DNA of 64,000 nt from an uncultured Bacteroidales bacterium (lineage in GTDB: Bacteria; Bacteroidota; Bacteroidia; Bacteroidales; Muribaculaceae): contig CAMWPM010000005.1 of NCBI GenBank assembly GCA_947176235.1, positions 20,312 through 84,311 of the forward strand, written 5' to 3'. Shown piece by piece: positions 9,458 through 49,059 of the stretch. Positions within the stretch are counted from its first letter, which is position 1, and the number at the start of each line of letters is the position of its first letter. The notes beneath the pieces were generated by a model that saw only the letters and a program-made list of their open reading frames with translations, was not told where the DNA came from and ran no database searches. Made by a program: the position numbers and the translations under genes.

Positions 9458-9727
9458 GTCATTTCTACCGGGCTTTCGGTAGTGGCTTGATAGTGTCGGG
9501 GTTATCACGTCAACTTTCTCCCGGCTGGCTCGTGCAGCTGCCTTCCCGTCCGGCGAACGGTATGTTTTTAAACATACGGTTTCCTCCCAACCAATCCCCT
9601 CCGGATGGCGTTATAGGTAAAATTCAGAATATCCGGGAATGTCATTGCGCAAGGCTCCCCAGCTATCCTCCATTTCATCGTGACCTGTTCTAATTACCGT
9701 TCATTTTTTATCAAGCGTTCTATCATC

Positions 9728-23115: not shown

Positions 23116-23188
23116 CAGGTGTAAACCAACCAAAAACGGACTGAAATCCGGATATAATGCACTTAAAATCTTACCTTTCAATACCATA

Positions 23189-24499: not shown

Positions 24500-24531
24500 T
24501 AGAATATATCGTTTTAAATCGTTAAATATCA

Positions 24532-25803
24532 ATGAATAAACTTGGAATCGCACTCAGTGCAGCTCTTACGGTGACTGCAATGATGCCTATGACGGCGCGC
24601 GACATGAAGGTGACGGTACCTGTGGAACATGACTGGTGGTGGAATGCCCCGGAGAAGCCCTCTATGACGGTTCTTGTCACGGATACTCTGGGGACTGCTG
24701 GCAACAGCAACCTGAGGTTCACGCTTGCAACCGACCGTGAGCCATCCCGTTATCTCGCGGACTTCACACAGACGGTGAATGTGGCAGCCGGCGACACGGC
24801 ATATATCACAATCATGCCTCCGATAGCCGATCCCGGATTCTATACGGTCACGCTTTGGGACGACGGCGTGGAAGCAGCAAAGGTGAATATCGGCTACGAG
24901 CCCGAAAATGTGGTGTCATTGCCTGATTATCAGCCGGATTTCAATGAGTTCTGGGCGCAGGCGCTGCAGGAGCTTGAAGCCGTGGCTCCGGAATACAGGA
25001 TGACCGAGCTCAAGGAGAAAAGCGGGAAGAAGCGCAGGATTTATCTGTGTGAATATCTCTCGCTTGAGGGCGATACCGTAAAAGGCTATCTGGCGATGCC
25101 TGTGAAGCCGGGCAAATATCCCGCCCACATATATTATAACGGGTACGGCGCGGGGGCGTGGGAATTTGACGCGGACGGGCGCCCGGATTGGATAGAATTT
25201 CTTCAATTCGGTAGAGGTCAGGGGCTTAACACCCCTTACAACCGCTTCGGAGACTGGTTGCAGTGGAATCTTAATGATCCTGCAACTTATTACTACAAAG
25301 GAGCTTATATGGATTGTGTGAGAACGATAGATTTTATCGAACAGCTTGAAAAGACGGACAAGAACAATATCTTTGCAGAGGGAGGAAGTCAGGGAGGCGC
25401 GTTCACACTTGCCGCCGCCGCTCTCGATCCCAAGCACCGCCTGAAAGCTATCGCCCCCTACGTGCCTTTCCTGAGCGACTTCCCTGACTATTTTAAGGTG
25501 GCACACTGGCCAGGACAGACATACCTCGCTAAAGCAAAGGAGCTTGGCATGAGCGAAGATCAACTTTACCGTAACCTGAGCTATTTTGACATCAAAAATC
25601 TGGCACGCCGCATTAACATACCTGTTCTGATGGGCGTAGGATTGCAGGATCCGACATGTCCCCCGCATATCAACTTCTCATCGTTCAATCTGATTGACAG
25701 CGATAAGGAATTCGTGATCTATCCGGAGTGCGGGCATACAGTAATATATGAAGACTGGAACCCCCGTAGAGAAAATTTCTTTAAAAAATACTTAAAAGAT
25801 TAG
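24532..25803 (+). CDS. Acetylxylan-esterase-like (CE7/AXE1) carbohydrate esterase
   Basis: FAEGGSQGGAFTLAAAALDPKHRLKAIAPYVPFLSDF and PVLMGVGLQDPTCPPHINFSSFN. Confidence 0.85.
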   Translation: MNKLGIALSAALTVTAMMPMTARDMKVTVPVEHDWWWNAPEKPSMTVLVTDTLGTAGNSNLRFTLATDREPSRYLADFTQTVNVAAGDTAYITIMPPIADPGFYTVTLWDDGVEAAKVNIGYEPENVVSLPDYQPDFNEFWAQALQELEAVAPEYRMTELKEKSGKKRRIYLCEYLSLEGDTVKGYLAMPVKPGKYPAHIYYNGYGAGAWEFDADGRPDWIEFLQFGRGQGLNTPYNRFGDWLQWNLNDPATYYYKGAYMDCVRTIDFIEQLEKTDKNNIFAEGGSQGGAFTLAAAALDPKHRLKAIAPYVPFLSDFPDYFKVAHWPGQTYLAKAKELGMSEDQLYRNLSYFDIKNLARRINIPVLMGVGLQDPTCPPHINFSSFNLIDSDKEFVIYPECGHTVIYEDWNPRRENFFKKYLKD

Positions 25804-25844
25804 TTAAAGATAAAAAAGTATTATAATAAATAGAAATATCTCAC

Positions 25845-26287
25845 TACTTTTGCAAATGAGATTTTTAATTATGAGTATTTGAAGGACGAAATATCCTTTT
25901 TACCAATTGCAACTAATTGAAAAACAACGCGATTGAAAGAGTGGTGTTAATCCTGAGACCTAATGATTGAAAAACTTATTGTAGACCTACCGATCACTTA
26001 CGTGATAAAAATAGCGAGTCACTACTTGAATCTTGACCTTAAAACGAATAAATTTTAACATAAAAACATTCCAATCATTGTCAAAAAAGAACATCAAACA
26101 AAGCTAACCTGAAACTGAAGTCCCCGTAAGGGACCAATCTTGAAAAATCCCCACGTAACTCTCTCTCTCAACGTAGCCGGTAAAGCGACCGGATGCGCGT
26201 AACCCGCCAAGGCTATTGATCCGCCGAGGCAAACAACCTTAAAGCTAAAATAAACAAAACCAATCTATTAAACCTTAACAATTGCTA
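25845..26287 (+). promoter_or_regulatory. Long 5' leader of susC with candidate promoter and hairpins
   Basis: TACTTTTG at 25845-25852 (TAnnTTTG; no clear -33); hairpins GTCCC/GGGAC (26120-26134) and CCGGT/ACCGG (26177-26192). Confidence 0.4.
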
Positions 26288-29200
26288 ATGATGACAAGTA
26301 AATGCTTGAACCTCAAGACATTCTTTTTAGCTATCTTTGCAACGATAGCTTTAGGACTGTCGGCACAGACACAAGTAAAAGGTGTCGTCCTGGATCCGGA
26401 AGGTGAGCCCGTAATCGGAGCTACCGTACGTGAGAAAGGAACTCAGGCAGCAGCGGCCACTGACTTTGACGGCAATTTCACGCTCAAGGTCAAGAACCTC
26501 AATGCCACTCTCGTAGTGTCCTTCGTGGGCCTCGAGACAGCTGAAGTACCCCTGAACGGGCGCAGTGACGTTACCATCAACATGAAGGAGTCGAGCCTCA
26601 ACCTCGACGAAGTAGTGGTGGTTGGTTACGGCGTGATGAAGAAGAGCGACCTTGCAGGCGCATCTTCGTCACTTAATGAAGAAGCGATGAAGGGTACGAT
26701 CATCACGAATATGGATCAGGCTCTTCAGGGCCGTGCCACCGGTGTGCAGGCTCTCACCACTTCGGGTGCTCCCGGTTCCTCCTCATCAATCCGCGTGCGC
26801 GGTCAGGCTACCATCAACGCCAACGCCGAACCTCTCTACGTAATCGACGGTGTGATCGTGCAGGGTGGCGGTAACTCCGGTGCCGACTTCGGTCTGGGTG
26901 ATGCCCTCGGTAACGGCCGCACCTCGACGGTGTCGCCGCTTTCGACTATCAACCCCTCCGACATCGTGTCGATGGAAGTGCTGAAGGACGCATCCGCCAC
27001 CGCCATCTACGGTGCGCAGGGTGCCAACGGCGTAGTGCTCATCACCACAAAGCGTGGTAAGGCAGGCGAAGCCAAGTTCACCTACGACGGTATGGTGGCA
27101 GTACAGCACCAGCAGAAGCGCCTCGACATGATGAACCTCCGTGAGTTTGCATACTATTACAATGATCTGGTTGCCACCGGTCAGCAACAGAACAACAACT
27201 ACTACGCAGATCCTTCGCTTCTCGGCAAGGGCACGAACTGGCAGGACGCCATCTTCCGCACAGCACTCCAGACCCAGCATCAGGTGTCGGCTCAGGGCGG
27301 TACGGACAAAGTGCAGTACTACGTATCGGGCAGCTACATGAACCAGGAAGGTACACTTATCGGATCGGACTTCGAGCGATTCAGTGTACGCGCCAACCTT
27401 GACGCCCAACTTAAGAGCTGGCTGAAACTCGGACTCAGCGCCACCTACAGCGACATCAATGAAAACCTGAAGCTCGCCGACGGTGAGGCCGGTATCATCA
27501 ACTACTCGCTGACCACTGTTCCCGATATACCTATCTATGATATCGACGGTAACTATTCGACTGTAGTGCGTGAGGGTTACACCAACCCGAACCCCGTGGC
27601 ACTCGCCATGCTCGATGAGATCAAGCTCGGTCGCCAGAAGCTGACGGGCAACATCTTCTTCGACGTAACCCCCATCAAGAACCTTACATGGCACGCTGAA
27701 TTCGACTACGATGTCAGCGCCGCAAAATCTGACCGCTTCAAACCGACCGTCGACCTCGGCGGCTGGGTGCGCGGTACTAATGACTCTTCTGTCCAGAAGA
27801 ACTCTTCATGGTTCTGGGCTCTCAAGAATTACGTGACCTACACCGGTCAGGTGAGCAAGCTCAACTTCAATGCCATGGTGGGTCAGGAATGCTGGGAGTC
27901 GAACTACAACTACGAAGGCGTCAGCAACACCAACCTCCCCTCCAACGAGGTGCACAACCCGACGCTTGGCTCCGGCACTCCGACCATCAACGTGGGCTGG
28001 GGCTCTTCGGCAATGGCTTCTTTCTTCACCCGTGAAACCCTTAACTGGGATAACCGTTATCTTCTCACCTATACCTATCGCTACGACGGCTCGTCGAACT
28101 TCGGTCCGAAGAACCGCTGGGCAGGCTTCCACTCACTGGCAGGCGCATGGCGCTTCACCAACGAGAAGTTCCTGAAGTCGACGGCAGAATGGTTTGACAA
28201 CGGTAAGCTTCGTCTCGGCTGGGGTCAGACGGGTAACGCCAATATCGGCGGCTACGCCTGGGGTTCGGCTATCTCCCGTATGCCTTCTGCACTCGGTAAC
28301 GGCTACCGTCCCGCCAACATCGCCAACACCGCCATCAAGTGGGAAACTCAAGAGCAGTGGAACGTTGGTCTCGATCTCAACTTCCTGAACAACCGACTGA
28401 ACTTCGTGTTTGACGCCTACGTCAAGACCTCGAAAGACATGCTTATGGCAATGCAGCTTCCCTCCTACATGGGTACACAGGGTAACGGCTCATCTGCACT
28501 GGCAGCACCGAAGGGCAACTATGGTGAAATCCAGAACAAGGGTCTGGAATTCGAACTCACGGGACGTCCGTTCGTAGGAGCGTTCGAGTGGGAGTCGAGC
28601 TTCCAGATCTCCTTCAACCGCAACAAACTGAAAGCTCTGAGCGGTACCGCAAACGCAAGTCTCGTGGGCTACGGCCAGTGGAGCGACGTAGTGTCGGTGA
28701 CCAATATCGGTCAGCCTCTCTACAACTTCTACGGCTACGTAGTGGAAGGCGTATATCAGGATCTCGAAGATATCATGAACTCTCCGAAGAGCGACAAATA
28801 TCCGGCAGACGGCGTGTTCAACGCCTACAACACCGTATGGCCCGGCGACCTTAAGTTCAAGGACGTAAATGGCGACGGCAAGATCGACGAAAACGACCGC
28901 ACGGTGATCGGTAACCCGCTTCCCGACTTCACCTTCGGCTGGAACAATACTTTCCGCTACAAGAACTTCGACCTCAACATCTTCATCAACGGCAGCTACG
29001 GCAACGACGTGATGAACTACCTCGACATGAAGATCACCCACATGAACTCGGCATGGGCTAACCAGCTGAGCAAGGTGAACTACCGCGCACAGCTTGAGCC
29101 TATCGACCCGAATAAGACCGGTGACGGCTACTGGTGGTATAGCGACATCAACAACGTGCGCGTTGCCAATCCGGATGCCCGTCTTCCCCGCGCGACGACC

Positions 29201-29500
29201 AATGACCCGAACGACAACGACCGCATGTCGAGCCGCTACATAGAGGACGGCAGCTATATCCGCCTTAAGAACATCTCACTTGGCTATACCTTCCCGAAGA
29301 AGATCACCAACAAGCTTCACATCGAGAATCTCCGTCTCTACTGCAACATGCAGAATGTATGGACCATCACCGGCTACAGCGGTTACGATCCCGAAGTAGG
29401 CGCCAACACACAGGATTCGACCGGTCTGACCTACGGACTTGACTTCGGTCGCTATCCTTCGCCTTTCAGCTGCACGTTCGGCCTCAATCTCTCTTTCTAA
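26288..29500 (+). CDS. SusC/RagA family TonB-dependent transporter
   Basis: CarboxypepD_reg-like N-terminal domain (VKGVVLDPEGEPVIGATVREKGT), TonB-box-like LDEVVVVGYGVMKKSDLAGA, ~1070 aa, terminal Phe. Confidence 0.97.
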   Translation: MMTSKCLNLKTFFLAIFATIALGLSAQTQVKGVVLDPEGEPVIGATVREKGTQAAAATDFDGNFTLKVKNLNATLVVSFVGLETAEVPLNGRSDVTINMKESSLNLDEVVVVGYGVMKKSDLAGASSSLNEEAMKGTIITNMDQALQGRATGVQALTTSGAPGSSSSIRVRGQATINANAEPLYVIDGVIVQGGGNSGADFGLGDALGNGRTSTVSPLSTINPSDIVSMEVLKDASATAIYGAQGANGVVLITTKRGKAGEAKFTYDGMVAVQHQQKRLDMMNLREFAYYYNDLVATGQQQNNNYYADPSLLGKGTNWQDAIFRTALQTQHQVSAQGGTDKVQYYVSGSYMNQEGTLIGSDFERFSVRANLDAQLKSWLKLGLSATYSDINENLKLADGEAGIINYSLTTVPDIPIYDIDGNYSTVVREGYTNPNPVALAMLDEIKLGRQKLTGNIFFDVTPIKNLTWHAEFDYDVSAAKSDRFKPTVDLGGWVRGTNDSSVQKNSSWFWALKNYVTYTGQVSKLNFNAMVGQECWESNYNYEGVSNTNLPSNEVHNPTLGSGTPTINVGWGSSAMASFFTRETLNWDNRYLLTYTYRYDGSSNFGPKNRWAGFHSLAGAWRFTNEKFLKSTAEWFDNGKLRLGWGQTGNANIGGYAWGSAISRMPSALGNGYRPANIANTAIKWETQEQWNVGLDLNFLNNRLNFVFDAYVKTSKDMLMAMQLPSYMGTQGNGSSALAAPKGNYGEIQNKGLEFELTGRPFVGAFEWESSFQISFNRNKLKALSGTANASLVGYGQWSDVVSVTNIGQPLYNFYGYVVEGVYQDLEDIMNSPKSDKYPADGVFNAYNTVWPGDLKFKDVNGDGKIDENDRTVIGNPLPDFTFGWNNTFRYKNFDLNIFINGSYGNDVMNYLDMKITHMNSAWANQLSKVNYRAQLEPIDPNKTGDGYWWYSDINNVRVANPDARLPRATTNDPNDNDRMSSRYIEDGSYIRLKNISLGYTFPKKITNKLHIENLRLYCNMQNVWTITGYSGYDPEVGANTQDSTGLTYGLDFGRYPSPFSCTFGLNLSF

Positions 29501-29524
29501 ACTCAATCAACAGGAAACAAAGTC

Positions 29525-31255
29525 ATGAAAATCAACAATATCAAGAATTTCATCCTGATCGGAGCCCTCGGGGTGTCGATGGCATCGTGTGAGGACTTCC
29601 TCGACCGTCCTGCCGAAGACAACTACAACACCGACAACTTCTATCAGAACGACGAACAGTGCTATCAGGGAGTGAACTACCTCTACAATTCACCCTGGTA
29701 TGACTTCCAGCGCGGCTTCATCCGCGTGGCTGAAACAATGTCGGGCAACGAGTTCGAAAGCCAGAATCCCTATATGAACTTCTCGGTGAACGGCACGAAC
29801 GAGGACCTGATCAACATGTCGTACTCGCTGTGGGCAGTGATCGGTCACGCCAACACCGTCTATAACAGCCTCAAGGGCGCGAGCGGCACAGCATCGGAGA
29901 CGGTGAAGAACGCCTGCATGGGCGAGTGCCTGACCTGGAAGGCAATGGCATATTTCTATCTGGTGCGTACCTTCGGCGATGTGCCCATCATCCACGACAA
30001 CTCGGAGGTGCTCGGCTCGGGTAACTACAACAGTGTGTTCAAGGTGCAGAAGGCTGACGTGTACGAGTACATCATCATGACCCTTGAAAAGGCACTCGAG
30101 CTTCTTCCGAAGTCGACCACCCAGAAGGGACGTATCGACTACTACTGCGCCGAAGGTCTGCTTGCCAAGGTGTACCTGACCCGTTCGGGTCTCGGGATGT
30201 CAGGCTCCCGCAATGATGCTGATCTCGCTGAAGCTGCAAAACTTGCAAAGGACGTGATCGACAACTCAGGTCGCAGCCTGATGGAGAATTACTCCGACAT
30301 CTTCCGCATGCAGAACAACGAGTGCGAAGAGTCTCTTATCGCATGGCGCTGGAGCGCAGGCCGCTCACCCTGGACTCAGCAGAATACCCTTCAGAGTGAC
30401 CTCGCAATGGGTGGCTTCTCGGAATTCGGTGACACATGGGGCGGCTGGCGCGGACCGTCGGTTGACCTTCAGGACGCATTCGGGGTAAGCTCGCTTGACA
30501 ATCCTGCTACGCGCATCGACGTAGATACCCGCCGCAAAGCGACGATGATGCTCCCCGGTGACGTCTATGAATACTTCTGGACTGACAAGGGCGGCTTCGA
30601 CCTCCTGAAATTTGTCTACGATCCCGAATATGGCAAGGGGGGCCCCGGCGGCACATGGCAGTGCGGTACCGGCGCACAGCACGTGAAGCACCTCTACGGT
30701 GACACATACGACCACGAGCAGGCTCTCGGCACTTCGCCAGAGAACATGGCTTACGGTCTCGCCACCCATATTCTCCGTCTTGCCGACGTCTATCTGATCT
30801 ATGCAGAAGCTGCCCTCGGCAACAATGCATCGACTTCGGACGCCAGCATCCTTGCAGCCTTCAATGCAGTTCGCGAGCGCGCCCATGTCTCCACAAAGAC
30901 CTCCATCACTTTCGATGACATCTGGAAAGAGCGTCGTCTGGAACTTGCCATGGAGGGTGACCGCTGGTACGACTTCGTACGCCGCAGCTACTACGACGTA
31001 CAGTCATGTATCGACGAACTGAAAGGTCAACGTCGTGCAGGTTACGACGGCTTTGATGACGTGGCAAGCAGATATTATGAGTCAGGACAGTGGACGGTAG
31101 ATCCCAACACCACGAAATACAATACGGATCAGCCCGTGCCGAACGTGACCGCAGCATCGTTCACACTTCCCTTCCCGACGGAGGATGTAGTGTTCAACCC
31201 CAACCTCCTCGCCGAGCCAATCCACGAGGAAGTGCGCGAACTCTATGCATATTGA
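29525..31255 (+). CDS. SusD/RagB family outer-membrane glycan-binding lipoprotein
   Basis: MASCEDFLDRPAEDNYN lipobox, immediately downstream of susC, WKERRLELAMEGDRWYDFVR. Confidence 0.97.
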   Translation: MKINNIKNFILIGALGVSMASCEDFLDRPAEDNYNTDNFYQNDEQCYQGVNYLYNSPWYDFQRGFIRVAETMSGNEFESQNPYMNFSVNGTNEDLINMSYSLWAVIGHANTVYNSLKGASGTASETVKNACMGECLTWKAMAYFYLVRTFGDVPIIHDNSEVLGSGNYNSVFKVQKADVYEYIIMTLEKALELLPKSTTQKGRIDYYCAEGLLAKVYLTRSGLGMSGSRNDADLAEAAKLAKDVIDNSGRSLMENYSDIFRMQNNECEESLIAWRWSAGRSPWTQQNTLQSDLAMGGFSEFGDTWGGWRGPSVDLQDAFGVSSLDNPATRIDVDTRRKATMMLPGDVYEYFWTDKGGFDLLKFVYDPEYGKGGPGGTWQCGTGAQHVKHLYGDTYDHEQALGTSPENMAYGLATHILRLADVYLIYAEAALGNNASTSDASILAAFNAVRERAHVSTKTSITFDDIWKERRLELAMEGDRWYDFVRRSYYDVQSCIDELKGQRRAGYDGFDDVASRYYESGQWTVDPNTTKYNTDQPVPNVTAASFTLPFPTEDVVFNPNLLAEPIHEEVRELYAY

Positions 31256-31291
31256 TTTTCCCACCAGTGAAAAGCTAATAACAACGAGACA

Positions 31292-32605
31292 ATGAACAAC
31301 TCAAGATACACGAAATGGGCACTTGGCGTCGCAGTAGCGGTGCTCGGGATCACTGCAGTGAGCTGCGATGACCAGCCCGACAAATTTGAGATGACCGGCG
31401 GCGTGCCTACGATCAAGTATGTGCGCGTGACGACGCCGGAGTCAGGCGACTCGCTCATCACGGGCGCCTATATGGAGAATACGATCTGCCTGGTGGGTGA
31501 CAATCTTCGTTCGATCCACGAGATGTACTTCAACGACCAGAAGGCAATCCTCAACACCTCACTGATCACTGACCACACGCTTATCGTGGACGTGCCGAAG
31601 AACATCCCTGAAGATGTGACTGACAAGATCTACATGCACACCCGCGACGGTGAAATCGTGACTTACGACTTCAACGTGCTTGTACCGGGACCGGCGGTAC
31701 GCTCCATCTCCTGTGAGTGGACCAAACCGGGCAATGAAGCCACCATCTACGGTGACTATTTCATCGACGATCCCAACAAACCGCTGAAGATCACTTTCTC
31801 CGGCAATGTGGAACTTCCTTACGAGAACATCAAGAAAATCACAAAGACAGCCATCACATTCGAAGTGCCTGAGAACTGGACCGAGGGCTACATGAACGTC
31901 ACCACACTCTACGGTACGTCGCGCTCATCGTTCAAGTTCCACGACACGACCAACATCCTCTTCGACTGGGATGGCAATAACGGTGGACTCGCAACCGGTC
32001 ACGGCTGGCGCGGCGGCGTCATCCATCAGGACGGTGATGATGAAGGCGTTGAAGCACTTGATGGCGGCTACCTCTTCTTCTCGGCAGATCTCAGCGGCGA
32101 AGCCGGAGCAACCTGGGCAGAAGATGGATTCTCCTTCAACTACTGGCCTGACGCGTCGGGAGAATTCGGTCCTCTGAGCAGCCGTCCGGAGTTTGCAGAT
32201 CTGATTTCGGATTATGGTGTAGACGGACTTCAGATTAAGTTCGAGATGTGCATTCCGGCTTCCAATCCCTGGAGTTCCTGCGCCATGCAGATAATCTTCA
32301 CAGGTGATGATGCCGTGACTTACGATACAGCCAACAACACTTACATAAGCGATGAAAACGTTCCGCGAGGCCTTTATAATCCCTGGAAGGCAGTAGGATC
32401 CTACGACACCGGAGGCAATTGGACCACAGTGTCGATGCCGCTCAGCCAGTTCACGTTCAAGCCTGACGGCGGTGTCTGTGGCAACAAGCTGAATCAGAAC
32501 ATGCTCACCGGTCTGACTTTCTTCGTGTGGAGCGGCGGTGTGTCAGGAACCGATTGTACGCCTGTCATACTCCTTGACAACATACGAGTAGTACCAGTTG
32601 AATAA
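31292..32605 (+). CDS. Surface glycan-binding lipoprotein (SusE/F-positioned, IPT/TIG-like)
   Basis: AVSCDDQPDKFE lipoprotein; IPT-like segments and C-terminal CBM-like domain; located after susD. Confidence 0.82.
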   Translation: MNNSRYTKWALGVAVAVLGITAVSCDDQPDKFEMTGGVPTIKYVRVTTPESGDSLITGAYMENTICLVGDNLRSIHEMYFNDQKAILNTSLITDHTLIVDVPKNIPEDVTDKIYMHTRDGEIVTYDFNVLVPGPAVRSISCEWTKPGNEATIYGDYFIDDPNKPLKITFSGNVELPYENIKKITKTAITFEVPENWTEGYMNVTTLYGTSRSSFKFHDTTNILFDWDGNNGGLATGHGWRGGVIHQDGDDEGVEALDGGYLFFSADLSGEAGATWAEDGFSFNYWPDASGEFGPLSSRPEFADLISDYGVDGLQIKFEMCIPASNPWSSCAMQIIFTGDDAVTYDTANNTYISDENVPRGLYNPWKAVGSYDTGGNWTTVSMPLSQFTFKPDGGVCGNKLNQNMLTGLTFFVWSGGVSGTDCTPVILLDNIRVVPVE

Positions 32606-32627
32606 TAAACAGTAAACTTATCCAACA

Positions 32628-34979
32628 ATGAAATATGTACAAAAACTGATTGCTGCGTTATTAGCAGTCATCATGATAGCTCCGGCAGTCGTGTTGACAT
32701 CGTGCAACGACGATGACGACTTCGGCACCGAGCAATACAAAGGAGGCATCAACCTCAATGTGTGGGGACCCTCACCCGTGATGCGCGGAGGTCAGCTCCG
32801 CTTCCTTGGTTCGGGTCTGGATCAGGTGACAGGCATCACTCTTCCCGGCGCGGGTGAAATCACCGACATTATGGTGGTAAGCCCCGAGGAGATCCAGATC
32901 ACCGTCCCTCAGAATGCCGAACCGGGCTATGTCACCCTCCACACTCCGAAGGGAGACATCACCACAATCACCGAACTTACCTTCACCGAGCCGATCGTGC
33001 TTGAATCGATGACTCCGCTGAGCGTGAAACCGGGCGACGTGATCACTCTCAAAGGTGACTATCTGAATCTTATCCATGAGATCATCTTCGCAGATGATGT
33101 GACAGTGGGTGAGGCTGACTTCACGAGCCACAGCCGCTATGAAATCAAGGTGGCAGTCCCCGCAGAGGCACAGACCGGCAAGATCATCCTCAGCGACGCT
33201 GACGAGGAAATGCCCAACTGGGTTTACTCGGACGAGGAACTCGTGGTGGCACTTCCCACGGTGGCAGAGCCTCTCGACCTGACTAATGCGAAGCCCGGCG
33301 ACGTGGTGACAATCAGCGGTCAGAACCTTGACCTTACGGTAGACGTGCAGATGGCTAACGGCGAAAGTCTTCCCTTCGAACTCACTGAGGACGGCAAGCT
33401 GGTGTTCACGCTTCCCGAAAATGCAGTGGACGGCGCTATCGTGGCTATCGCCGCATCGGGCGTGAAGGTGGTGATCGCCAATATCGGCATGGTAGAACCG
33501 ACCGAGATGGTAGCAACCCCCGCTACCGAACTCCGCGGCGGTGACATCGTGACAATCAAGGGTCTGAACCTCGATCAGGTTGTGAGCATCGTATTCCCCG
33601 GCGTAGCTGACGCAGTGGAACCCGCAACCATCAGCAACGGCGAACTTACGGTAGCATTCCCCGAAAAGGCACAGTCGGGTGCCATCACCCTTAATCTCAA
33701 GAGCGGCAAGACAAATGCTAATGTGGAGCTTGCAACGGCGAAGCCCATGAATATCTCATACGCTCCCGCTCCCGTACCTTCAGGCGGCGAACTGACCGTG
33801 AAGGGCAGCAATCTTGACGTTGCTTCGGCAATCGTGTTCGGCGGCGACGTAGAAGTGGCTATCGAGAATCCGACGGCTACAGAGTTCAAGGTAATGGTTC
33901 CGCTGAGCGCACAGTCGGGCGCACCCGTTATCAAGATGGCAAACGGCGAGAGCGTAGAGGCTCCCGAACTTGAAATCGCCCTCCCGACGATCGCTTACAT
34001 CACCGAGATGCCCGCAGAGGATGCTGAAATCCATGCAGGAACAGTGTTCAGCGTGCAGATCGCCAATGAGAAACTCCTCACAGGCGTGAAGGTGAACGGC
34101 GAAGACGTGCAGTACATCCTCAATGGCACAACGCTCTACATCAATCTTCCCGAAACGTGCGGCAGCGGAACAACCGTAACGCTCGTGTCAGGCGACGAAT
34201 CGCTCGACTATGTGTTTGACTTTATTCCTCAGACCCACGTGGGCATCACGCTTTGGGAAGGAATGTTTGAGAACGGAGGCTGGGCCGGTATGCAGGATCT
34301 CGCATGGGGCGGCTACGACTGGTCGAATATCCCCGCGGGAGCTATCATCACGCTGTATGTAACTCCGACGGTAGCCGACGGTGAATGGTGGTGCGTATCG
34401 CTGCGCCACGGCAACGACTGGGGTAACCTACCCGCACCGATACCCGGTCAGTATGACAATCCGGCAGACGGCATGGTACAGTTTGAACTGACCGAGGAAG
34501 TGAAAGCCGATATTATCGCCAACAACGGATTTGTGGTGAGCGGTACGGGCTATATCATGACGAAGATTACCGCAGAGTGGGAGATTTCGCTTGAGACTCA
34601 GGTCATGTTTGACTGGGATTATCCGGTAGACATGGGTAATTACAGTATCAATCTTGAGGGTAAGCCCGGATCTGCCTTAATTGATGCAGGTGTCAAGAAG
34701 GGACAGACACTCACTATTTACTGTACGCCTACCGCTGATTATAACACAGCAGATCCTCAAGTCCATATTCAGATTTTTGATGGTCACTGGGGTGCTCTTA
34801 CTTTCCCTGAAATTAATGGTGGAGGTCAGTTTAATGAAGCCACTTGGGGTGATATGAGCAAAATCGAAATCAAGGTTACTGACGAACTTTACGAGAAGTT
34901 CACTACTCTGACAGACTGGGGATACTGCATTATCTTCCAGGGTAATAATATCCTTATTAATAAGGTGACGCTGAAATAA
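32628..34979 (+). CDS. Surface glycan-binding lipoprotein with tandem IPT/TIG-like repeats
   Basis: LTSCNDDDDFGTE surface lipoprotein signal; repeated 'PGD/GGD-(V/I)(V/T)I.G..L' segments; two similar C-terminal modules. Confidence 0.82.
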   Translation: MKYVQKLIAALLAVIMIAPAVVLTSCNDDDDFGTEQYKGGINLNVWGPSPVMRGGQLRFLGSGLDQVTGITLPGAGEITDIMVVSPEEIQITVPQNAEPGYVTLHTPKGDITTITELTFTEPIVLESMTPLSVKPGDVITLKGDYLNLIHEIIFADDVTVGEADFTSHSRYEIKVAVPAEAQTGKIILSDADEEMPNWVYSDEELVVALPTVAEPLDLTNAKPGDVVTISGQNLDLTVDVQMANGESLPFELTEDGKLVFTLPENAVDGAIVAIAASGVKVVIANIGMVEPTEMVATPATELRGGDIVTIKGLNLDQVVSIVFPGVADAVEPATISNGELTVAFPEKAQSGAITLNLKSGKTNANVELATAKPMNISYAPAPVPSGGELTVKGSNLDVASAIVFGGDVEVAIENPTATEFKVMVPLSAQSGAPVIKMANGESVEAPELEIALPTIAYITEMPAEDAEIHAGTVFSVQIANEKLLTGVKVNGEDVQYILNGTTLYINLPETCGSGTTVTLVSGDESLDYVFDFIPQTHVGITLWEGMFENGGWAGMQDLAWGGYDWSNIPAGAIITLYVTPTVADGEWWCVSLRHGNDWGNLPAPIPGQYDNPADGMVQFELTEEVKADIIANNGFVVSGTGYIMTKITAEWEISLETQVMFDWDYPVDMGNYSINLEGKPGSALIDAGVKKGQTLTIYCTPTADYNTADPQVHIQIFDGHWGALTFPEINGGGQFNEATWGDMSKIEIKVTDELYEKFTTLTDWGYCIIFQGNNILINKVTLK

Positions 34980-34991
34980 ATTCACCAATAC

Positions 34992-35036
34992 ATCACAGGG
35001 GATTTTCTCTCATGTAAATCCCCTGTGATTTTTTTA
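34992..35036 (+). terminator. Strong intrinsic terminator between SGBP and GH26 genes
   Basis: Perfect 14-bp inverted repeat ATCACAGGGGATTT (34992-35005) / AAATCCCCTGTGAT (35016-35029) then a 7-nt T tract. Confidence 0.85.
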
Positions 35037-35060
35037 CTATAACACTACCAATTCACATCA

Positions 35061-36488
35061 ATGGAAAGCATTAAGAAAACATTTGGCAAGTGCCTGATAG
35101 CCATTGCCTGTGCGCTGACCATCACGTCGTGCGGCAGCGACAGTAAAGACGACGAACCCGTAGGACCTCAGCAGAAGCTGACGCTGCGGACACAGTCGAT
35201 AGCCGACAATTCATCAGTGGACGCTGCGAGCACAAAGTCGATCGTCCTCTCGTACAACAATCTCATAGAAATCAAGGATGCCGCAGGAATCACCCTGAAC
35301 GGCGCAAAAGCAGATGCCTCAGCCAGCGGCATGGATCTGACAATAGATCTGAATCTGGAACCCTGGAAGGAATATTCGCTTGAACTCAAAGCCGGAGCCA
35401 TCGCCGTGAAGGGCAATGACAAAGCCGTGTCGGAGAGCAAGACCATCATATTTGACACAAAATACGGCAAGGACCCGAATGCCGACCCGACGGCAACGGT
35501 GGCAAAGACGCTTGTGAACAGCAAAGCCACGAAGGAGACAGTGAACCTCTACAATCTGCTGCTCGAGAACTACGGGAAGAAGATCTTCTCGGGTACGATG
35601 GGCGGTGTGGCTCTGGAGACGGGCTACTATGACATGGTGGCAAACGGAACAGGGCTGAATCCGGCAATCATCGGATTTGACTTCATTCACTTAGGATGGT
35701 CGCCCGCCAACTGGATCGACTATACGAAAATCAATGTGGTGAAGGAATCGTGGGACAAAGGGCGCATCATATCGTTCTGCTGGCACTGGAATGTGCCCGA
35801 CAGCGAAGCCAACGTGGGGAATCCGAGCAATTACAATGCCCGCAACAAGTTCAGCGCCAAGAATGCCGTGACTCCCGGAACGTGGGAGAACGACTTCATC
35901 AACAAGGATCTGGAGAAGGTGGCTGAGACGCTGAAAATGTATCAGGACTCAGGTATCCCGATTCTGTGGCGTCCGCTGCATGAAGCAGCCGGCGACTACA
36001 AGTGGGGCGCATGGTTCTGGTGGGGATTCGAAGGCGTTGAGGCTACGAAGGATCTATGGAAGTACATGTATAACAAGCTCACGAATGAGTATGGCATCAA
36101 TAACCTGATCTGGGTGTGGACGATGCAGTGCTCGGACGAAGGACGTCCGGCAAGCATTGACAAGCTCAGAGGCGCATATCCGGGCGACGAATACGTGGAC
36201 ATCGTCGGTGCCGATATCTACCCGCAGAAGGTGGGAGAGTCGACCAACGCACAGTTCAATCTGATGAATGAGGCAATCAACGGCAAGAAGATGCTGACGC
36301 TGAGCGAGGTCGGGCTGTTCCCAAGCTTTGAACTCGCCGAGAAGGACGGTTGCCTGTGGTCGTACTTCATGCAGTGGTATGACGACGACGCAAATCAGGA
36401 CGGTTACCAGCCGGGCGTGAGTGACTTCAACACGCTTAAAACGTGGAAAGACGTGATGAGCGAGCCGATAGTGATCAACGCCAGATGA
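35061..36488 (+). CDS. Glycoside hydrolase family 26 mannanase, lipoprotein
   Basis: ITSCGSDSKDDEP lipoprotein; IISFCWHWNVPDSE, PILWRPLHEAAG, GAWFWWG, LSEVGLFP. Confidence 0.93.
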   Translation: MESIKKTFGKCLIAIACALTITSCGSDSKDDEPVGPQQKLTLRTQSIADNSSVDAASTKSIVLSYNNLIEIKDAAGITLNGAKADASASGMDLTIDLNLEPWKEYSLELKAGAIAVKGNDKAVSESKTIIFDTKYGKDPNADPTATVAKTLVNSKATKETVNLYNLLLENYGKKIFSGTMGGVALETGYYDMVANGTGLNPAIIGFDFIHLGWSPANWIDYTKINVVKESWDKGRIISFCWHWNVPDSEANVGNPSNYNARNKFSAKNAVTPGTWENDFINKDLEKVAETLKMYQDSGIPILWRPLHEAAGDYKWGAWFWWGFEGVEATKDLWKYMYNKLTNEYGINNLIWVWTMQCSDEGRPASIDKLRGAYPGDEYVDIVGADIYPQKVGESTNAQFNLMNEAINGKKMLTLSEVGLFPSFELAEKDGCLWSYFMQWYDDDANQDGYQPGVSDFNTLKTWKDVMSEPIVINAR

Positions 36489-36554
36489 AAAGGGCGTGAG
36501 ATGACTACGCACTGACATAACGACAGCTTCAACATAGACAAGGAAAGAGCAGAA

Positions 36555-39008
36555 ATGGAGAAATACGGATACTTTGATGACGCGCGCCGCGAATACGTCA
36601 TCACGGAGCCCCGCACACCGTGGCCCTGGATCAATTATCTGGGAACGAAAGACTTTTTCTCGCTGATATCGAATACGGCAGGCGGCTACTCGTTCTACAA
36701 GGACGCTAAGTTCCGCCGCATCACGCGCTACCGCTACAACGGGGTGCCGATGGATGCTGGTGGTCGTTACTTCTACATCAAGGATGGCGATGGGAAGGCA
36801 TGGAATCCCGGTTGGAAACCATGTAAGACCGAGCTTGACCGCTATGAGTGCCGTCACGGCATGAACTACACGGAGATCACGGGAGAAAAGGATGGTCTGG
36901 AAGCCCGAACGCTCTTCTTCGTTCCGCTCGACACGCATGCTGAGGTGACGCTGCTGACGCTGACCAACAAGACCGATGAGGTGAAGAGCGTGAAGCTGTG
37001 GTCGTTCCAGGAATGGTGTCTGTGGAACGCGCAGACCGATATGGAGAACTTCCAGCGAAATTTCTCAACCGGCGAGGTGGAGATAGACGGGTCGACGCTC
37101 TACCATAAGACAGAATACAAGGAGCGCCGCGATCACTATGCGTTCTATCACGTTAACCGCGAGATTCAGGGCTTCGACACTGACCGCGAGACTTTCCTGG
37201 GACTGTATAACGGATTTGACGATCCGGATGCCGTCAGAGCCGGACATGCGTTTGGCTCGGTGGCTCACGGGTGGAGTCCGATAGCGTCGCATTTCATGGA
37301 ACTCACCCTGCAACCGGGCGAATCGACCAATATGGTTTTTGTGCTCGGATATGTGGAGAACGCTCCGGAGGAGAAGTGGGAGAGCAAGGGCGTGGTGAAC
37401 AAGACCAAAGCCCGCGAACTGATAGCCCGATTCTCGACGAAGGAGCAGGTGGAGGAGGCTTTCGGCGATCTTAAGGCTTACTGGGACCGCCTGCTTGACA
37501 AGTACACGGTGAAAAGCGGTGACGAGCGGCTTGACCGCATGGTGAACATCTGGAATCAGTACCAGTGCATGATAACGTTCTGCTTCTCACGTTCGGCATC
37601 GTTCTTCGAGAGCGGCATCGGGCGTGGAATGGGATTCCGAGATTCAAACCAGGATCTGATTGGCTTCGTGCATCAGATCCCGGAGCGTGCGCGGGAGCGA
37701 ATCATCGACATCGCTTCGACGCAATTTCCGGACGGCGGCTGCTACCACCAGTATCAGCCGCTTACGAAGCGCGGCAACAACGACATAGGCGGCGGCTTCA
37801 ATGATGATCCGATGTGGCTGATATTCGGCACGATCGCCTATATCAAGGAGACCGGCGACATGTCGATACTCGACGAGCCGGTGCCGTTTGACAACGAGCC
37901 GGGCACGGAAGTGCCGCTGATGGAGCATCTGCGCGTGTCGTTCAACCACGTGATAGAGAATCTGGGTCCGCACGGGCTACCGCTGATCGGACGTGCCGAC
38001 TGGAACGACTGTCTGAATCTCAATTGCTTCTCGACCGATCCCAACGAAAGTTATCAGACGACGGAGAACAAGACCGAGGGATCGAAGGCGGAGTCGCTGA
38101 TGATTGCAGGTCAGTTTGTGATCTACGGCGAAGAGTACGTTAAACTCTGCCGTCAGCTGGGCATGAACGAGGAGGCGGACCGCGCCGAATCCCATGTGGA
38201 GGCGATGCGCGAAGCTGTGAAGCGTGACGGCTGGGACGGCGACTGGTACTTGCGTGCTTACGACTATTACGGACGCCCGGTTGGCAGCCACGTCAACAAA
38301 GAGGGTAAGATCTTCATCGAAAGTCAGGGCTGGTGCACTATGGCAGGAATCGGTCTTGAGGACGGCATGGTGGAGAAGTCGCTTGACTCGGTGAAGAAAT
38401 ATCTTGACTCGGAGCATGGAATCGTACTCAACAATCCGGCGTTCACCGAATATGTGGTGGATTATGGCGAAATCTCGTCGTATCCGGCAGGCTACAAGGA
38501 AAATGCCGGAATTTTCGCCCACAACAATCCGTGGATAATCATAGGTGAAACTGTGCTTGGCAGAGGTGACGAAGCCTGGCGCTACTATGAGAAGATCTGC
38601 CCCGCCTACGTAGAGGAGCGCAACTCCCATCTGCACAAAGTGGAGCCTTACGTCTACTGCCAGATGACAGCCGGCAAGGATGCTTTCCGACCCGGAGAAG
38701 CCAAAAACTCATGGCTTACGGGCACCGCGGCGTGGAACTGGTATGCGATCACGCAGTTTATCCTTGGTGTGAAGCCGGGATATGACGGGCTCGAAATCGA
38801 TCCCTGCATTCCCCGCGACTGGGACGGATACGAAGTGAAACGCGAATTCCGAGGCGCCGAGTACATCATCAAAGTGAAAAATCCCCATCATCTCAACAGT
38901 GGCGTCACACACCTGACAGTCAACGGCGAACGTGTCGAGGGCAATATCGTGCCGATGGCTCCCGCCGGAAGCGTGAACACTGTGGAAGTCACACTTGAAG
39001 AAAAATAA
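36555..39008 (+). CDS. GH94 family phosphorylase (cellobiose-phosphorylase-like)
   Basis: [58 protein letters not shown], catalytic region [17 protein letters not shown]. Confidence 0.92.
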
Positions 39009-39013
39009 AACGA

Positions 39014-40174
39014 ATGAAAAGATATGCAATTTCGGCTGTCGCGGCACTGATGCTTATGTCGTGCGGCACGAAAACAGGCAATAAGGCGGTCGAGACGGCT
39101 GAAGAAACCGCTACACCCGCGTCCGCCCTCCTCGCCCTGATGAGTGAGGCTGCCAAGCAGGGCAAATATATGGTAGGTCATCACGATGACACTGCCTATG
39201 GATATGAATGGCAATACGAGGAGGGTCGCAGCGACGTCAAAGAGACGGCCGGTGACTACCCGGGCGTGATCAACTGGGATCTGGGTCTGATAGAGCTTGA
39301 CTCGGCGAAAGAGCTTGACGGCGTGCCGTTTGAGTTTATTGCCGAAGAGGTGGCGAAGCAGAACGCACGCGGCGGTGTCAACTCCTTCAGCTGGCATCTC
39401 CGTCATCCTGGTACACGTGCAACCTCGTGGGACGTACAACCTCCGGTAGTAGCCGAAATCGTGACCGAAGGGACAGCGATGAATGACACGATGGTGACGT
39501 GGATAGGACGCGCCGCCGATTTCATCGGCAGTCTGCGCGATGCGGATGGCAACCGCATCGGCGTGCTGTTCCGTCCCTGGCATGAACACACCGGCAGCTG
39601 GTTCTGGTGGGGCAAGGATCTGTGCTCCCCGGAGGACTACAAGGCACTGTGGGCTCTCACCCGGAAAGTGTTTGATGAAAAAGGCATTGACAATGTGGTA
39701 TGGGTCTACTCTCCCGGTCAGATAACAGATGAGGCAGAATATCTGGAGCGTTATCCCGGTGACGAATATGTGGACGTGCTCGGATGCGATATCTATCACT
39801 ACGGTGGAGAGCCTGCTACCGACGACTACCGCATGAACGTGAACAATACTCTCGGCATAGCAAAGAAACTTGCCGACGAGCGAGGTAAATTGATAGCACT
39901 CAGTGAGACAGGGCTTGAGGCTCTTCCGATGGATGGATGGTTTACGGAAGTGCTCGGCCCGCTCTGCGACGCTTATCCCATAACGTCCGTGACGCTATGG
40001 CGCAATGCTGAGAAGAACAGCAAGCATGAGCATTTCTATGCTCCATACAAAGGACATCCGTCAGAAAAGTCGTTTGCGGAGTGGACAGCAGGATCGAGCC
40101 CCATGCTGGCATCAGATGTAGCCGCCCTGCGCAAATCCATGAACGACACTACGAAGACTGCCGGCACCAATTGA
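39014..40174 (+). CDS. Glycoside hydrolase family 26 mannanase/mannobiosidase-like, lipoprotein
   Basis: [14 protein letters not shown] lipobox; [47 protein letters not shown]. Confidence 0.92.
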
Positions 40175-40239
40175 ATCGGAATACCATTTACCGCAATTAT
40201 CAATACCAACTAACCCAATCTTTATCACTAATAAGCATC

Positions 40240-41418
40240 ATGACAAAAAACGATACATTCGAGACAAGAAAGAAACTTGTGGAGGGACGCTACACAGCCC
40301 TTATCACGCGCCCGAACGTGAAGCTCGAGGGTAACGGCGTGTATGAGCGTTATGCCAACCCTGTCGTCACAGCCGAGATGGTTCCGCTCGAATGGCGATA
40401 TGACTTCAACCCTGCCACCAATCCTTACTTCATGGAGCGTATCGGCGTGAACGCCACGCTGAATTCCGGAGCTATAAAAATCAACGGTAAATATGTGCTC
40501 GTAGTGCGCGTGGAGGGTAATGACCGCAAATCATTCTTCGCTGTAGCCGAGAGTGACAACGGCGTGGACGGCTTCAAATTCCGCGAACGCCCGATCACGA
40601 TGCCGGATGACGCAATCCCCGGAACGAACGTCTACGACATGCGACTTACTGCGCATGAGGATGGTTGGATCTACGGTCTGTTCTGCGTGGAGCGCCATGA
40701 CGACACCTGTCCGGGCAATCTCTCCGCCGCCACTGCGACGTGTGGAATCGCCCGCACCAAGGACCTTGAAACGTGGGAGCGCCTGCCTGACCTTAAAAGC
40801 AAGTCGCAGCAGCGTAACGTAGTGCTTCATCCCGAATTCGTCAACGGCAAATATGCCCTTTACACACGCCCGCAAGACGGATTTATCGACGCAGGCAGCG
40901 GCGGCGGAATCGGCTGGGGATACGTGGATGACATGACCTGTGCCGAGGTGAAGGACGAGCAGATAATTGACGCCCGCTATTACCATACCATTAAGGAAGT
41001 GAAGAACGGCGAGGGTCCACATCCCATCAAAACACCCCGTGGATGGCTGCATCTCGCACACGGTGTGCGCGGGTGTGCCTCCGGTCTCCGCTACGTGCTC
41101 TACCTCTACATGACGGCACTCGACGAACCCTGGAAGCCGGTGGCGACTCCCGGCGGCTACTTCATGGCTCCGGTGGGAGAGGAATACATGGGCGACGTGA
41201 TGAACGTGCTATTCAGCAACGGCTGGATCTGCGACGATGACGGAACCGTCTACATCTACTATGCTTCGAGCGACACGCGCATGCACGTAGCCACATCGAC
41301 AGTCGACCGTCTTGTGGATTATTGCCTCAACACCCCTTCCGACGGGCTCACCACGGTGAAGAGCGTGGAGACAATCAACGCACTCATCGACCGCAACAGG
41401 GAATATTTCAATAAATAA
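40240..41418 (+). CDS. GH130 family phosphorylase (4-O-beta-D-mannosyl-D-glucose phosphorylase-like)
   Basis: ATG at 40240; [81 protein letters not shown]. Confidence 0.93.
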
Positions 41419-41446
41419 TCGCAAAACAAATCTAATCATCAGGAAA

Positions 41447-42883
41447 ATGGCTCTGCTTAAAGAGAAAATCGGCTACGGTTTCGGCGACATGGCATCGTCG
41501 ATGTTCTGGAAGGTGTTCAGCTATTATCTGCCCTTCTTCTACTCAAATATTTTCGGACTAAGCCTTGTCGATACCGGCGTGCTTCTTCTGGTGACCCGCA
41601 TCTGGGACGCCGTGTCGGATCCGATGATGGGGGCAGTGGCTGACCGCACCCGCACGCGGTGGGGTAAGTACCGCCCTTATCTGCTTTGGGTGGCGGCACC
41701 TTTCTCGATCTGCGGAATCCTTCTGTTCACCACTCCTGACTGGGGCTATGCCGCCAAACTTGTCTGGGCATACGTGACCTATATCCTGATGATGACAGTC
41801 TACACCGGCATCAATGTGCCCTACGGTGCAATGCTCGGAGTGATGACTGACAACTCGAAGGAAAAGACGGTTTTTTCGTCGTTCCGCATGTTCTTCGCCT
41901 ACGGAGGATCGTTCATCGCGCTCTTCCTCTGGGATCCTCTGTGCGCAATGTTCGGCGAAAAGATGGGAATGTCGCCTTCAACAAGCTGGCAAATGTCCAT
42001 GGTGGTGATCGCATCATGCTGCTTCGTACTCTTCCTGCTCTGCTTCAAGATGACACGCGAAAGAATACAGACAGTGTCGGATGCATCGCTCGGGAAAGAT
42101 CTTAAAGCTCTGGTGACCAACAAACCCTGGTGGCTGCTGAATGGCGCATCGCTCTGCTTCAACCTTTTCAACACGGTGCGTGGCGCTACGGTGGCTTACT
42201 TCTTCGTTGACATCATCCAGAGAACTCCCGATGATCACATCATGCTCTTCGGGCTGTCACTGCTTTTCTATTCCGGTCTGTTCCTCGGCGTAGGCGAAGT
42301 CGCCAACATGCTCGGTGTGGCACTTGCCGTACCCATTACCGCACGCCTTGGCAAGAAATCGACGTTCATCATGGTGGATGCTTTGCTGATCGTGTTCAGC
42401 ATCATATTCTTCATGTGTCCTGTCAACCCGACCGGCTTCTGGATGATGCTTCTGCTTCAGGTGGTCATCTCGATCCTGACCGGAGTGATGTCGCCTCTCG
42501 TCTGGTCGATGTATGCCGACGTGAGCGATTATTCGGAACTTAAATACCGCACAGCCTCGACAGGTCTGATCTTCTCGTCGGCTTCGATGGCACAGAAATT
42601 CGGCGGAGCTATCGGTGGGGCTGCGGTGATGTGGCTCCTCGACGGAGTCGGTTATATCGCACGCGGAGATAGCGATGCCAGTGCCGCTGTAATTCAGCCG
42701 GAGGGTGCTATAAGCTGCCTGTGGTATCTCATGACGTTCATTCCCGCCGGTGTGGCGCTTCTTTCGATGCTGATAGTATGGCTTTATCCCCTCACTACCG
42801 AACGTGTGGATGCTATCGTGGCAGAGCTCAATACTCTGCGCGGGGAAAGCCGGCTCCCGATTCTCCCGAACAGGACGAGATGA
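41447..42883 (+). CDS. MFS/GPH-family sugar:cation symporter
   Basis: KIGYGFGDMASSMFWKVFSYYLPFFY...DAVSDPMMGAVADRTRTRWGKYRPYLLW, typical GPH motif. Confidence 0.93.
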   Translation: MALLKEKIGYGFGDMASSMFWKVFSYYLPFFYSNIFGLSLVDTGVLLLVTRIWDAVSDPMMGAVADRTRTRWGKYRPYLLWVAAPFSICGILLFTTPDWGYAAKLVWAYVTYILMMTVYTGINVPYGAMLGVMTDNSKEKTVFSSFRMFFAYGGSFIALFLWDPLCAMFGEKMGMSPSTSWQMSMVVIASCCFVLFLLCFKMTRERIQTVSDASLGKDLKALVTNKPWWLLNGASLCFNLFNTVRGATVAYFFVDIIQRTPDDHIMLFGLSLLFYSGLFLGVGEVANMLGVALAVPITARLGKKSTFIMVDALLIVFSIIFFMCPVNPTGFWMMLLLQVVISILTGVMSPLVWSMYADVSDYSELKYRTASTGLIFSSASMAQKFGGAIGGAAVMWLLDGVGYIARGDSDASAAVIQPEGAISCLWYLMTFIPAGVALLSMLIVWLYPLTTERVDAIVAELNTLRGESRLPILPNRTR

Positions 42884-47363: not shown

Positions 47364-48608
47364 ATGACATCGATAAAAGTAAAATTCAGAGCCGCGGCAG
47401 AAACCGGCCGCGAAGGTACGATCTATTATCAGATTATACATAACAGATGTGCACGACAGTTGATGACAGTCCACAAAGCGCTTCCGGAAGAATGGGATGA
47501 GCGACGGTCGGGGTTGAAGATTCCGAAGCTTGGAGTTCGTCAGAGAAAGGTCCGTCAGGTCAGGGAGATGGTCAGGCGGGATGTGGAGCGCCTGTGGAGA
47601 ATCGTCAGACGGCTTGATGACGAGGGGACGGAGTACACGGCTGATGACGTGATGGAAGAATACAGCCGCTATGTCCACGACTATTCGCTGCATAATTTCA
47701 TGAGCAGGATCATCGGAAAGCTGAGGATAAACGGAAAAGTCCGAACTGCCGAGACATACAGGGTGACGATGAGCAGTTTCCGAAAGTTTATGGAGTGTAG
47801 GTTAGGGGATAGTCAAACCGGAATGAATGGGACGGGATGGTCGGAACTCATGATAGATGATCTGGACGGGGAAATGATGGAGGAATACGAGGGTTGGCAG
47901 AGGGCGAGAGGAGTGACCCCAAACACGACATCGTTCTATCTGAGAATACTACGGGCGGTGTATAACCGCGCCGTTGAGAGCGGGGCTGTGGAGAACTGCC
48001 ATCCTTTCCGTCATGTGTACACCGGGATTGACAAAACGGTGAAGCGCGCGCTGCCGATTCATACTATAAAACGGATCCGCCAGCTTGATCTGCATAGTGC
48101 TCCGTCGCTTGATTATGCCCGTGACATGTTTATACTAAGTTTTTTTCTGAGAGGGATGAGTTTTGTGGACATGGCTTACCTGAGGAAGTCGGACTTAAAG
48201 AATGGTCACGTGATCTACCGCCGAAGGAAGACGGGACAGCAGCTCATGATAGGGTGGACGAAGGAGATGCAGAATATTCTCGACAAGTATCCTGAAAATC
48301 CTACGGATTATCTGCTTCCGATTATCCGCAGCCGAAGCGGGAACGAGCGATGCACCTATCGTAACGTGGGCTATAACATCAACCGGAGCTTAAAGAAAAT
48401 TGCGGAACTGGTGGGGGTGGATATGCCGCTGACGCTCTACGTCGCACGCCACAGCTGGGCTTCGGCTGCACGGACTAAGGGGATACCTCTGAGCGTGATA
48501 AGCGAGGGGATGGGGCATGACTCGGAGGCGACAACCCAGATCTATCTGGCATCGCTTGACACTTCCGTTGTCGACCGTGCCAATTCGCTGATTATGGCTT
48601 CAGTATGA
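47364..48608 (+). CDS. Tyrosine-type site-specific recombinase/integrase
   Basis: IKVKFRAAAETGREGTIYYQIIHNR arm-binding-like N-terminus; catalytic FLRGMSFVDMAYL, RRKTGQQ, YVARHSWASAARTKGI, GHDSEATTQIYLASL (R..K..R/H..H..Y). Confidence 0.93.
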   Translation: MTSIKVKFRAAAETGREGTIYYQIIHNRCARQLMTVHKALPEEWDERRSGLKIPKLGVRQRKVRQVREMVRRDVERLWRIVRRLDDEGTEYTADDVMEEYSRYVHDYSLHNFMSRIIGKLRINGKVRTAETYRVTMSSFRKFMECRLGDSQTGMNGTGWSELMIDDLDGEMMEEYEGWQRARGVTPNTTSFYLRILRAVYNRAVESGAVENCHPFRHVYTGIDKTVKRALPIHTIKRIRQLDLHSAPSLDYARDMFILSFFLRGMSFVDMAYLRKSDLKNGHVIYRRRKTGQQLMIGWTKEMQNILDKYPENPTDYLLPIIRSRSGNERCTYRNVGYNINRSLKKIAELVGVDMPLTLYVARHSWASAARTKGIPLSVISEGMGHDSEATTQIYLASLDTSVVDRANSLIMASV

Positions 48609-48638
48609 GACTGTGGTTGGCTTGGCTCCGCAACGGGC

Positions 48639-48703
48639 AAAAAAAAATTACTCGTCATCACGACGAATAATCTTCTTACCTTAAATCTAATACCATGAAA
48701 AAC
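48639..48703 (-). ncRNA. Putative small non-coding RNA with its own promoter and terminator
   Basis: Minus-strand TACTTTTG box (plus CAAAAGTA 48709-48716) ~37 nt upstream of the hairpin ATTATTCGTC-GTGAT-GACGAGTAAT (48647-48671) that runs into a 9-nt T tract; no ORF; -33 element weak. Confidence 0.5.
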
Positions 48704-48816
48704 TGATGCAAAAGTAGTGTTTTTATGTTTTACAGCATAATTTTGGGGCATAAAAATGCATAGTATTAACACTATTTAACTTATAAAGGGTAAATATTCG
48801 TTGTAAAATAAAGATT

Positions 48817-48891: not shown

Positions 48892-49059
48892 TCAATCCTT
48901 GACTTCGGAGAACTGATCCTTGCCGACTCCACAAATCGGGCATACCCAATCGTCGGGAATATCTTCAAATGCAGTGCCGGGGGCGATTCCGCCATCAGGG
49001 TCACCTACTGCCGGGTCATATACCCAGTCGCAAACGTCGCAAATGTATTTCTTGTCCAT
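48892..49059 (-). CDS. Rubredoxin
   Basis: Translated by hand: [55 protein letters not shown]; two CxxC(G/D) metal-binding pairs; 55 aa, absent from supplied ORF track. Confidence 0.97.

Follow-up and report, generated by a model that had tools for sequence, protein, structure and literature searches.

The Intergenic Region between Integrase and Rubredoxin

The intergenic region between an integrase gene and a rubredoxin gene carries on its minus strand a compact unit composed of a palindrome, a -7 promoter box, a 5' stretch, a hairpin and a T tract. The window is the whole 64-kb stretch of DNA that was analysed, and the features of the locus within it are:

47364-48608, tyrosine recombinase (integrase) gene (PF00589)
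48639-48646, minus strand, T tract of the terminator past the stem, read in the sequence
48647-48671, minus strand, intrinsic terminator hairpin with arms ATTATTCGTC (48662-48671) and GACGAGTAAT (48647-48656), compensatory changes in 7/10 pairs
48678-48703, minus strand, R1' seed GTTTTTCATGGTATTAGATTTAAGGT, predicted to be unpaired (20-sequence alignment and MFE fold)
48705-48672, minus strand, 5' region CAGTTTTTCATGGTATTAGATTTAAGGTAAGAAG, located in the sequence
48639-48705, minus strand, FopS sRNA (RF04319), predicted transcript of ~67 nt, cmscan match above the gathering cut-off
48709-48716, minus strand, -7 promoter box TACTTTTG, fitting TAnnTTTG, located in the sequence
48724-48739, minus strand, palindrome TATGCTGTAAAACATA of the Cur/BT4338 type, covering the -33 region and separated by 7 bp from the -7 box downstream of it, one mismatch to the consensus
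48892-49059, minus strand, rubredoxin gene (PF00301)

The initial annotation had placed the -7 box, the 5' region, the stem arms and the T tract correctly, and had assigned the terminator to the minus strand from its wobble polarity and T tract. That argument holds: one U.G pair of the stem in the minus-strand RNA is a C/A mismatch on the plus strand, and the stem is perfect on the minus strand only. The T tract counts 8 T beyond the stem, or 9 if the last stem base is included. The initial annotation saw no ORF in the unit. A 6-codon ATG ORF (MVLDLR) lies within the seed and a mechanical 76-aa GTG ORF spans the unit, but neither is a conserved coding feature, because FopS copies with CATAG in place of CATGG lack that ATG.

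Membership of the FopS Family

The minus strand from 48705 to 48638 matches the family BTncRNA_FopS (RF04319) over the full model (1-71) with 59.8 bits against a gathering threshold of 56 and an E-value of 3e-6, calculated over the 64-kb window and all Rfam families (cmscan). This is the sole non-tRNA match above a curated cut-off in the whole window. The next best family, GibS (RF04182), reaches 26.1 bits against a cut-off of 115, and the weak Rfam matches to snoZ105, AbsR25 and EF0408_EF0409 are put down to chance.

FopS was described as a "family of paralogous sRNAs" of Bacteroides thetaiotaomicron that pair near the start codons of PUL mRNAs, and in the 14 FopS RNAs of that species a single-stranded 5' part bearing the seed R1' precedes a terminator hairpin (PMC11697453). 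The window unit has a conserved 5' R1' in a predicted single-stranded region, a Rho-independent terminator hairpin that adjoins the 5' part, ~65-70 nt in total, and paralogues in its own genome, which holds three copies above the cut-off, the other two on contigs C22 and C29, and one below it, at 46 bits on C6. The unit is almost certainly a member of the FopS family, and the window RNA is a new member of an already known sRNA family.

Folding and comparison agree with this assignment. The predicted RNA has an MFE of -16.1 kcal/mol (z = -4.0), which none of 200 shuffles equals, in a fold that lengthens the stem to 16 bp, into the A-rich and U-tract flanks, and leaves the R1' seed unpaired. The seed is near-invariant in an alignment of 20 FopS sequences. 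Across the 20 relatives 91% of the cells of the stem are paired, double-sided changes occur in 7/10 pairs, and the covariation score is reached by none of 500 shuffles. The initial annotation had proposed a stand-alone minus-strand transcription unit, to be compared with Rfam and with related Bacteroidales for conservation and covariation. Both comparisons came out positive, and the unit with its promoter, predicted ~67-nt RNA and intrinsic terminator is borne out by them; the family name FopS, the target-facing seed and the Cur-type box at 48724-48739 are additions to that account.

FopS is present in 35/35 other Muribaculaceae genomes searched and in 8/24 genomes from other families of the order. 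At least 119 genome stretches of the contig collection contain an exact copy of the 26-nt seed, the holders including Muribaculaceae, Dysgonomonas, Bacteroides, Mediterranea, Prevotella, Tannerella, Barnesiella, Paludibacteraceae and others. A positional orthologue of the window locus was not found among 20 relatives with similar scores. Six weak matches in the window genome (L005-L010) lack the FopS seed and were rejected as FopS. Three of them (L006, C16:41623-41683; L007, C79:7184-7243; L009, C54:2264-2323) share TTGCAAGAAATGTGATAATGATTGGTTTATAA followed by a GGCTGTC hairpin and a T tract; this unit has three copies in the window genome, two of them at contig ends, and may represent either a different multicopy sRNA or a mobile-element end.

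The proximity of the integrase, whose stop codon is ~31 bp away, brings up the alternative that the unit is a mere convergent integrase terminator or a dead FopS copy derived from a mobile element. FopS has been seen in a phage (PMC11697453), and in locus L033 (G030:C7), unrelated to the window locus (47364-48705), FopS is likewise convergent with a tyrosine recombinase gene, whose product shares 42% identity with that of the window. However, a related integrase lies beside FopS in only 2 of ~50 relative loci, the U tract and the perfect stem belong to the minus strand, and the -7 box, seed, stem and Cur box are all intact. An integrative element was also considered and rejected, as a search of the window for a repeated tRNA-Gln 3' end found none. 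We regard a terminator or a dead copy as very improbable and treat the unit as a FopS gene.

A Cur-Type Box in FopS Promoters

The sigma-ABfr promoter of FopS has TTTG at -33 and TAnnTTTG at -7 (PMC11697453), and a TAnnTTTG box is located at about the same place in 164/168 FopS copies. The window promoter has the -7 box, while the -33 place is occupied by the palindrome TATGCTGTAAAACATA and has no TTTG. The consensus of Cur (BT4338) is TATGTTnTAnAACATA, written with its flanks as wwwTATGTTnTAnAACATAwww (PMC6989115). The window palindrome differs from TATGTTnTAnAACATA at one of the 14 fixed positions and fits the flanking w positions as well; the window FopS promoter thus carries the promoter motif of the Cur regulon.

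Alignment of the upstream regions of FopS copies shows that the palindrome is recurrent. With up to two mismatches, it starts between -46 and -34 from the seed TTTTTC in 65/162 unique copies, where base shuffling gave a mean of 0.12 and a maximum of 2 in 200 rounds. In 55 of these 65 a spacer of 7 or 8 bp separates the palindrome from the -7 box, and 26 copies have a perfect box at this position, with none elsewhere in 200 bp. As a result of the collection scan used, the 162 copies are enriched for the CATGG seed. The less biased count comes from 344 genomes drawn evenly across the order, of which 64 have the pattern of FopS start and -7 box promoter; 31 of the 64 carry the strict box at the right spacing in at least one copy, and the reversed-pattern control gave zero.

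Within a genome the box is confined to a minority of copies. It is found on 1/4 in the window genome and, among the copies examined, on 1/11 in B. faecalis, 1/7 in B. caecigallinarum and 1/9 in Mediterranea massiliensis. In B. faecalis and M. massiliensis the copy with the box has the same two neighbours, a methylase-like and a permease-like gene (names assigned by eye), and the two copies are therefore positional orthologues. In three Bacteroides/Mediterranea genomes (L226-L251) most FopS copies have a CATAG seed without the box, and CATGG is the seed of the single box-bearing copies. The base preferred before the target AUG would be U or C, according to the seed type. Three tandem copies ~450 bp apart in another genome (L195, G031:C25 at 18733, 19176 and 19641) each carry a Cur-type box.

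The Cur regulon as such appears to be present in the window genome, since Cur-type sites lie upstream of fusA2, of galM (galactose mutarotase) and of a gene of the Crp/Fnr family, as well as between a divergent pair of susC genes (apart from the Crp-family protein, the genes were named by eye). The window itself contains a near-consensus Cur-type palindrome, TATGTTTTTAAACATA, at 9561-9576, ahead of a gene for a porin O/P-like protein (9728-10867). Two genes of the Crp family are present in the assembly, both candidates for the Cur orthologue, and an NCBIfam search of the Crp-family protein returned no name.

From its sequence, the FopS promoter box is likely to be bound by Cur. It may instead serve another regulator of an otherwise ordinary FopS copy, for example the second Crp/Fnr-family protein, in response to bile or redox stress: bile salts induce FopS, through a regulator that is not known (PMC11697453), and there are two Crp-family genes to choose from. 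The agreement of the motif with the 14 fixed positions of the Cur consensus, perfect in 26 copies, and the same motif upstream of fusA2 and galM in the window genome make another regulator rather unlikely. The FopS paper raises the possibility of an unknown regulator enhancing transcription, and Cur and BT4338 are absent as words from its main text (PMC11697453). A paper search on the Cur regulon and sRNA turned up only the MasB paper and a Cur paper, and the papers searched yielded no link between Cur and FopS. The Cur-type box on FopS promoters goes beyond the FopS paper.

Sign of the Probable Control by Cur

The box is centred ~29 bp upstream of the predicted start and ~16 bp upstream of the -7 box, and therefore covers the -33 element. 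In fusA2 of the window genome the box lies ~33 bp upstream of a -7-like sequence, the usual spacing for an activator, versus 7-8 bp in FopS. The simplest reading is repression by occlusion, because the box covers -33, unlike that of fusA2, and this agrees with the lower level of FopS on host glycan, ~3-fold lower on high-mannose N-glycan than on glucose (PMC11697453). The published change in total FopS cannot be put down to Cur, because most copies lack the box. On balance, the position of the box favours Cur as a repressor of FopS rather than an activator.

The same sRNA could be activated by Cur in place of a weak -33 element, and would then act as an extra brake on particular PULs during starvation. 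Cur activates both fusA2, its best documented target, and the sRNA MasB, and the -33 TTG is missing in 37/67 box-bearing FopS copies versus 14/123 without the box, as would fit an activator-dependent promoter. A box centred near -29 overlaps the polymerase contact, however, and neither its spacing nor the drop of aggregate FopS on host glycan relative to glucose is what activation would predict. Activation is the less probable sign, and repression is the one adopted below.

Candidate Targets

The best candidate target within the window is:

23149-23213, plus strand, translation start of a GH5 mannanase-like gene (23189-24499), predicted duplex with FopS

The seed is complementary, in antisense, to start-codon regions of the type ACCTTAAATCTAATACCATGAAAAAC. 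In B. thetaiotaomicron, FopS-10, for which the role of the seed has been demonstrated, pairs with the translation start of the susC gene BT_3983 and with other PUL mRNAs and represses their translation; in two atypical PULs it pairs with a glycoside hydrolase gene that is first in the operon (PMC11697453). The complement of 25 nt of the seed, with up to three mismatches, was found in the window genome only at the FopS copies themselves, so that this genome has no full-length antisense target. The 16-nt core has five near-matches at two mismatches, among them the start of a gene adjacent to a capsule-export gene and one next to an anSME-like gene; the reversed-pattern control gave four, and the near-matches are not evidence of targeting. 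SusC starts, with a mean of -12.3 kcal/mol against -11.4 kcal/mol for the remaining gene starts, have only a small advantage and were not retained as a target class.

The duplex with the GH5 start, at -22.1 kcal/mol, is the best of the 43 ORF starts in the window, and the other FopS copies of the window genome reach -16.8, -16.7 and -11.4 kcal/mol on the same start. The window copy pairs better because its AAGGTAAGA pairs with TCTTACCTT. Since 2 of 1000 dinucleotide shuffles are as good and 43 starts were tested, with similar energies arising by chance elsewhere in the window, the predicted pairing is no more than suggestive of the GH5 mannanase-like mRNA as a FopS target. This gene is the first of a beta-mannan PUL (window 23189-42880, plus strand) with genes for GH5, an AXE1-type esterase, SusC, SusD, a surface glycan-binding protein (SGBP), GH26, GH94, GH130 and a sugar transporter. 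That the window FopS is an antisense repressor of PUL-type mRNAs is probable.

FopS without a Detectable RRM_1 Protein

In B. thetaiotaomicron FopS is associated with the RRM_1 protein RbpB, an association outside the Rfam definition of the family, and RbpB antagonises repression by FopS (PMC11697453). No match to PF00076 (RRM_1) was found in the window genome, which is 85% complete, or in 33/35 other Muribaculaceae genomes, most of them >90% complete. The same search gave strong matches (E ~1e-18 or better) in 16/24 genomes of other families and was positive in the control genome of Bacteroides ihuae. Because RRM_1 is undetected in 33/35 genomes of the family while FopS is present in 35/35, the published circuit probably lacks its RbpB part in the window genome, unless another RNA-binding protein takes its place. 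That almost an entire family has FopS but no detected RRM_1 protein, an observation that also goes beyond the FopS paper, points to an sRNA that is not everywhere dependent on RbpB.

A Proposed Circuit

These observations together lead us to propose, with good though not full confidence, a Cur-controlled FopS gene whose ~67-nt RNA blocks glycan-uptake mRNAs at their translation start without RbpB. RNA polymerase would start just downstream of the -7 box TACTTTTG and end at the hairpin and U tract. The unpaired 5' part, GUUUUUCAUGGUAUUAGAUUUAAGG, would pair antisense with the leader and start codon of mRNAs like ...UAAUACC-AUG-AAA-AA, chiefly those of the first genes of polysaccharide-utilisation operons, and block the initiation of translation. 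Cur, the CRP-like master regulator of carbohydrate use, presumably as the orthologue of BT4338, would bind the palindrome over -33 of this copy when preferred sugars are exhausted; the window FopS would then fall, releasing the glycan-uptake mRNAs. The circuit in the window genome would operate without an RRM protein of the RbpB type. For the window organism we infer the transcription of this copy, the binding of Cur, the sign of the control and the targets.

A wider proposal, somewhat more probable than not, is that a conserved subclass of FopS across Bacteroidales forms a direct arm of carbon catabolite control through Cur over -33, free of RbpB in Muribaculaceae. If true, the link between FopS and Cur ties the availability of preferred sugars to the translation of glycan-uptake genes. 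The choice of sugars by gut Bacteroidales has been known at the level of transcription, through Cur and PUL-specific regulators, and since 2025 at the level of translation, through FopS and RbpB. A Cur box conserved among FopS promoters would connect both layers of control and point to one regulator, and it is this box, together with the missing RRM partner, that gives the window sRNA its interest.

Comparison with Known Systems

The window RNA shares with FopS of B. thetaiotaomicron the R1' seed in a single-stranded 5' part, the terminator hairpin, a length of ~65-70 nt, a TAnnTTTG-type promoter and the occurrence of several paralogues. It differs in a 5' end of CAG rather than GTG, in AAGGTAAGAAG after the seed, in the Cur-type box and in a genome without a detectable RRM_1 (RbpB-type) protein; the copy number is 3-4 in the window genome versus 12-15 in Bacteroides. 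The R1 part of the seed is common to FopS and GibS (RF04182), but GibS differs by its greater length, a second seed (R2) and another promoter type (PMC11697453).

The likeness to MasB is one of regulation. MasB is a Bacteroides sRNA under direct, activating control by Cur and offers a precedent for an sRNA in the Cur regulon (PMC10994844); its target is BT_1675, and what sets FopS apart from it is the box over the -33 element. If Cur represses FopS, the logic is also that of an enterobacterial sRNA. Spot 42 of E. coli is repressed by CRP-cAMP and in turn represses secondary sugar-uptake genes. Spot 42 is an unrelated, Hfq-dependent RNA and not a member of the family, and the resemblance would be one of circuit design.
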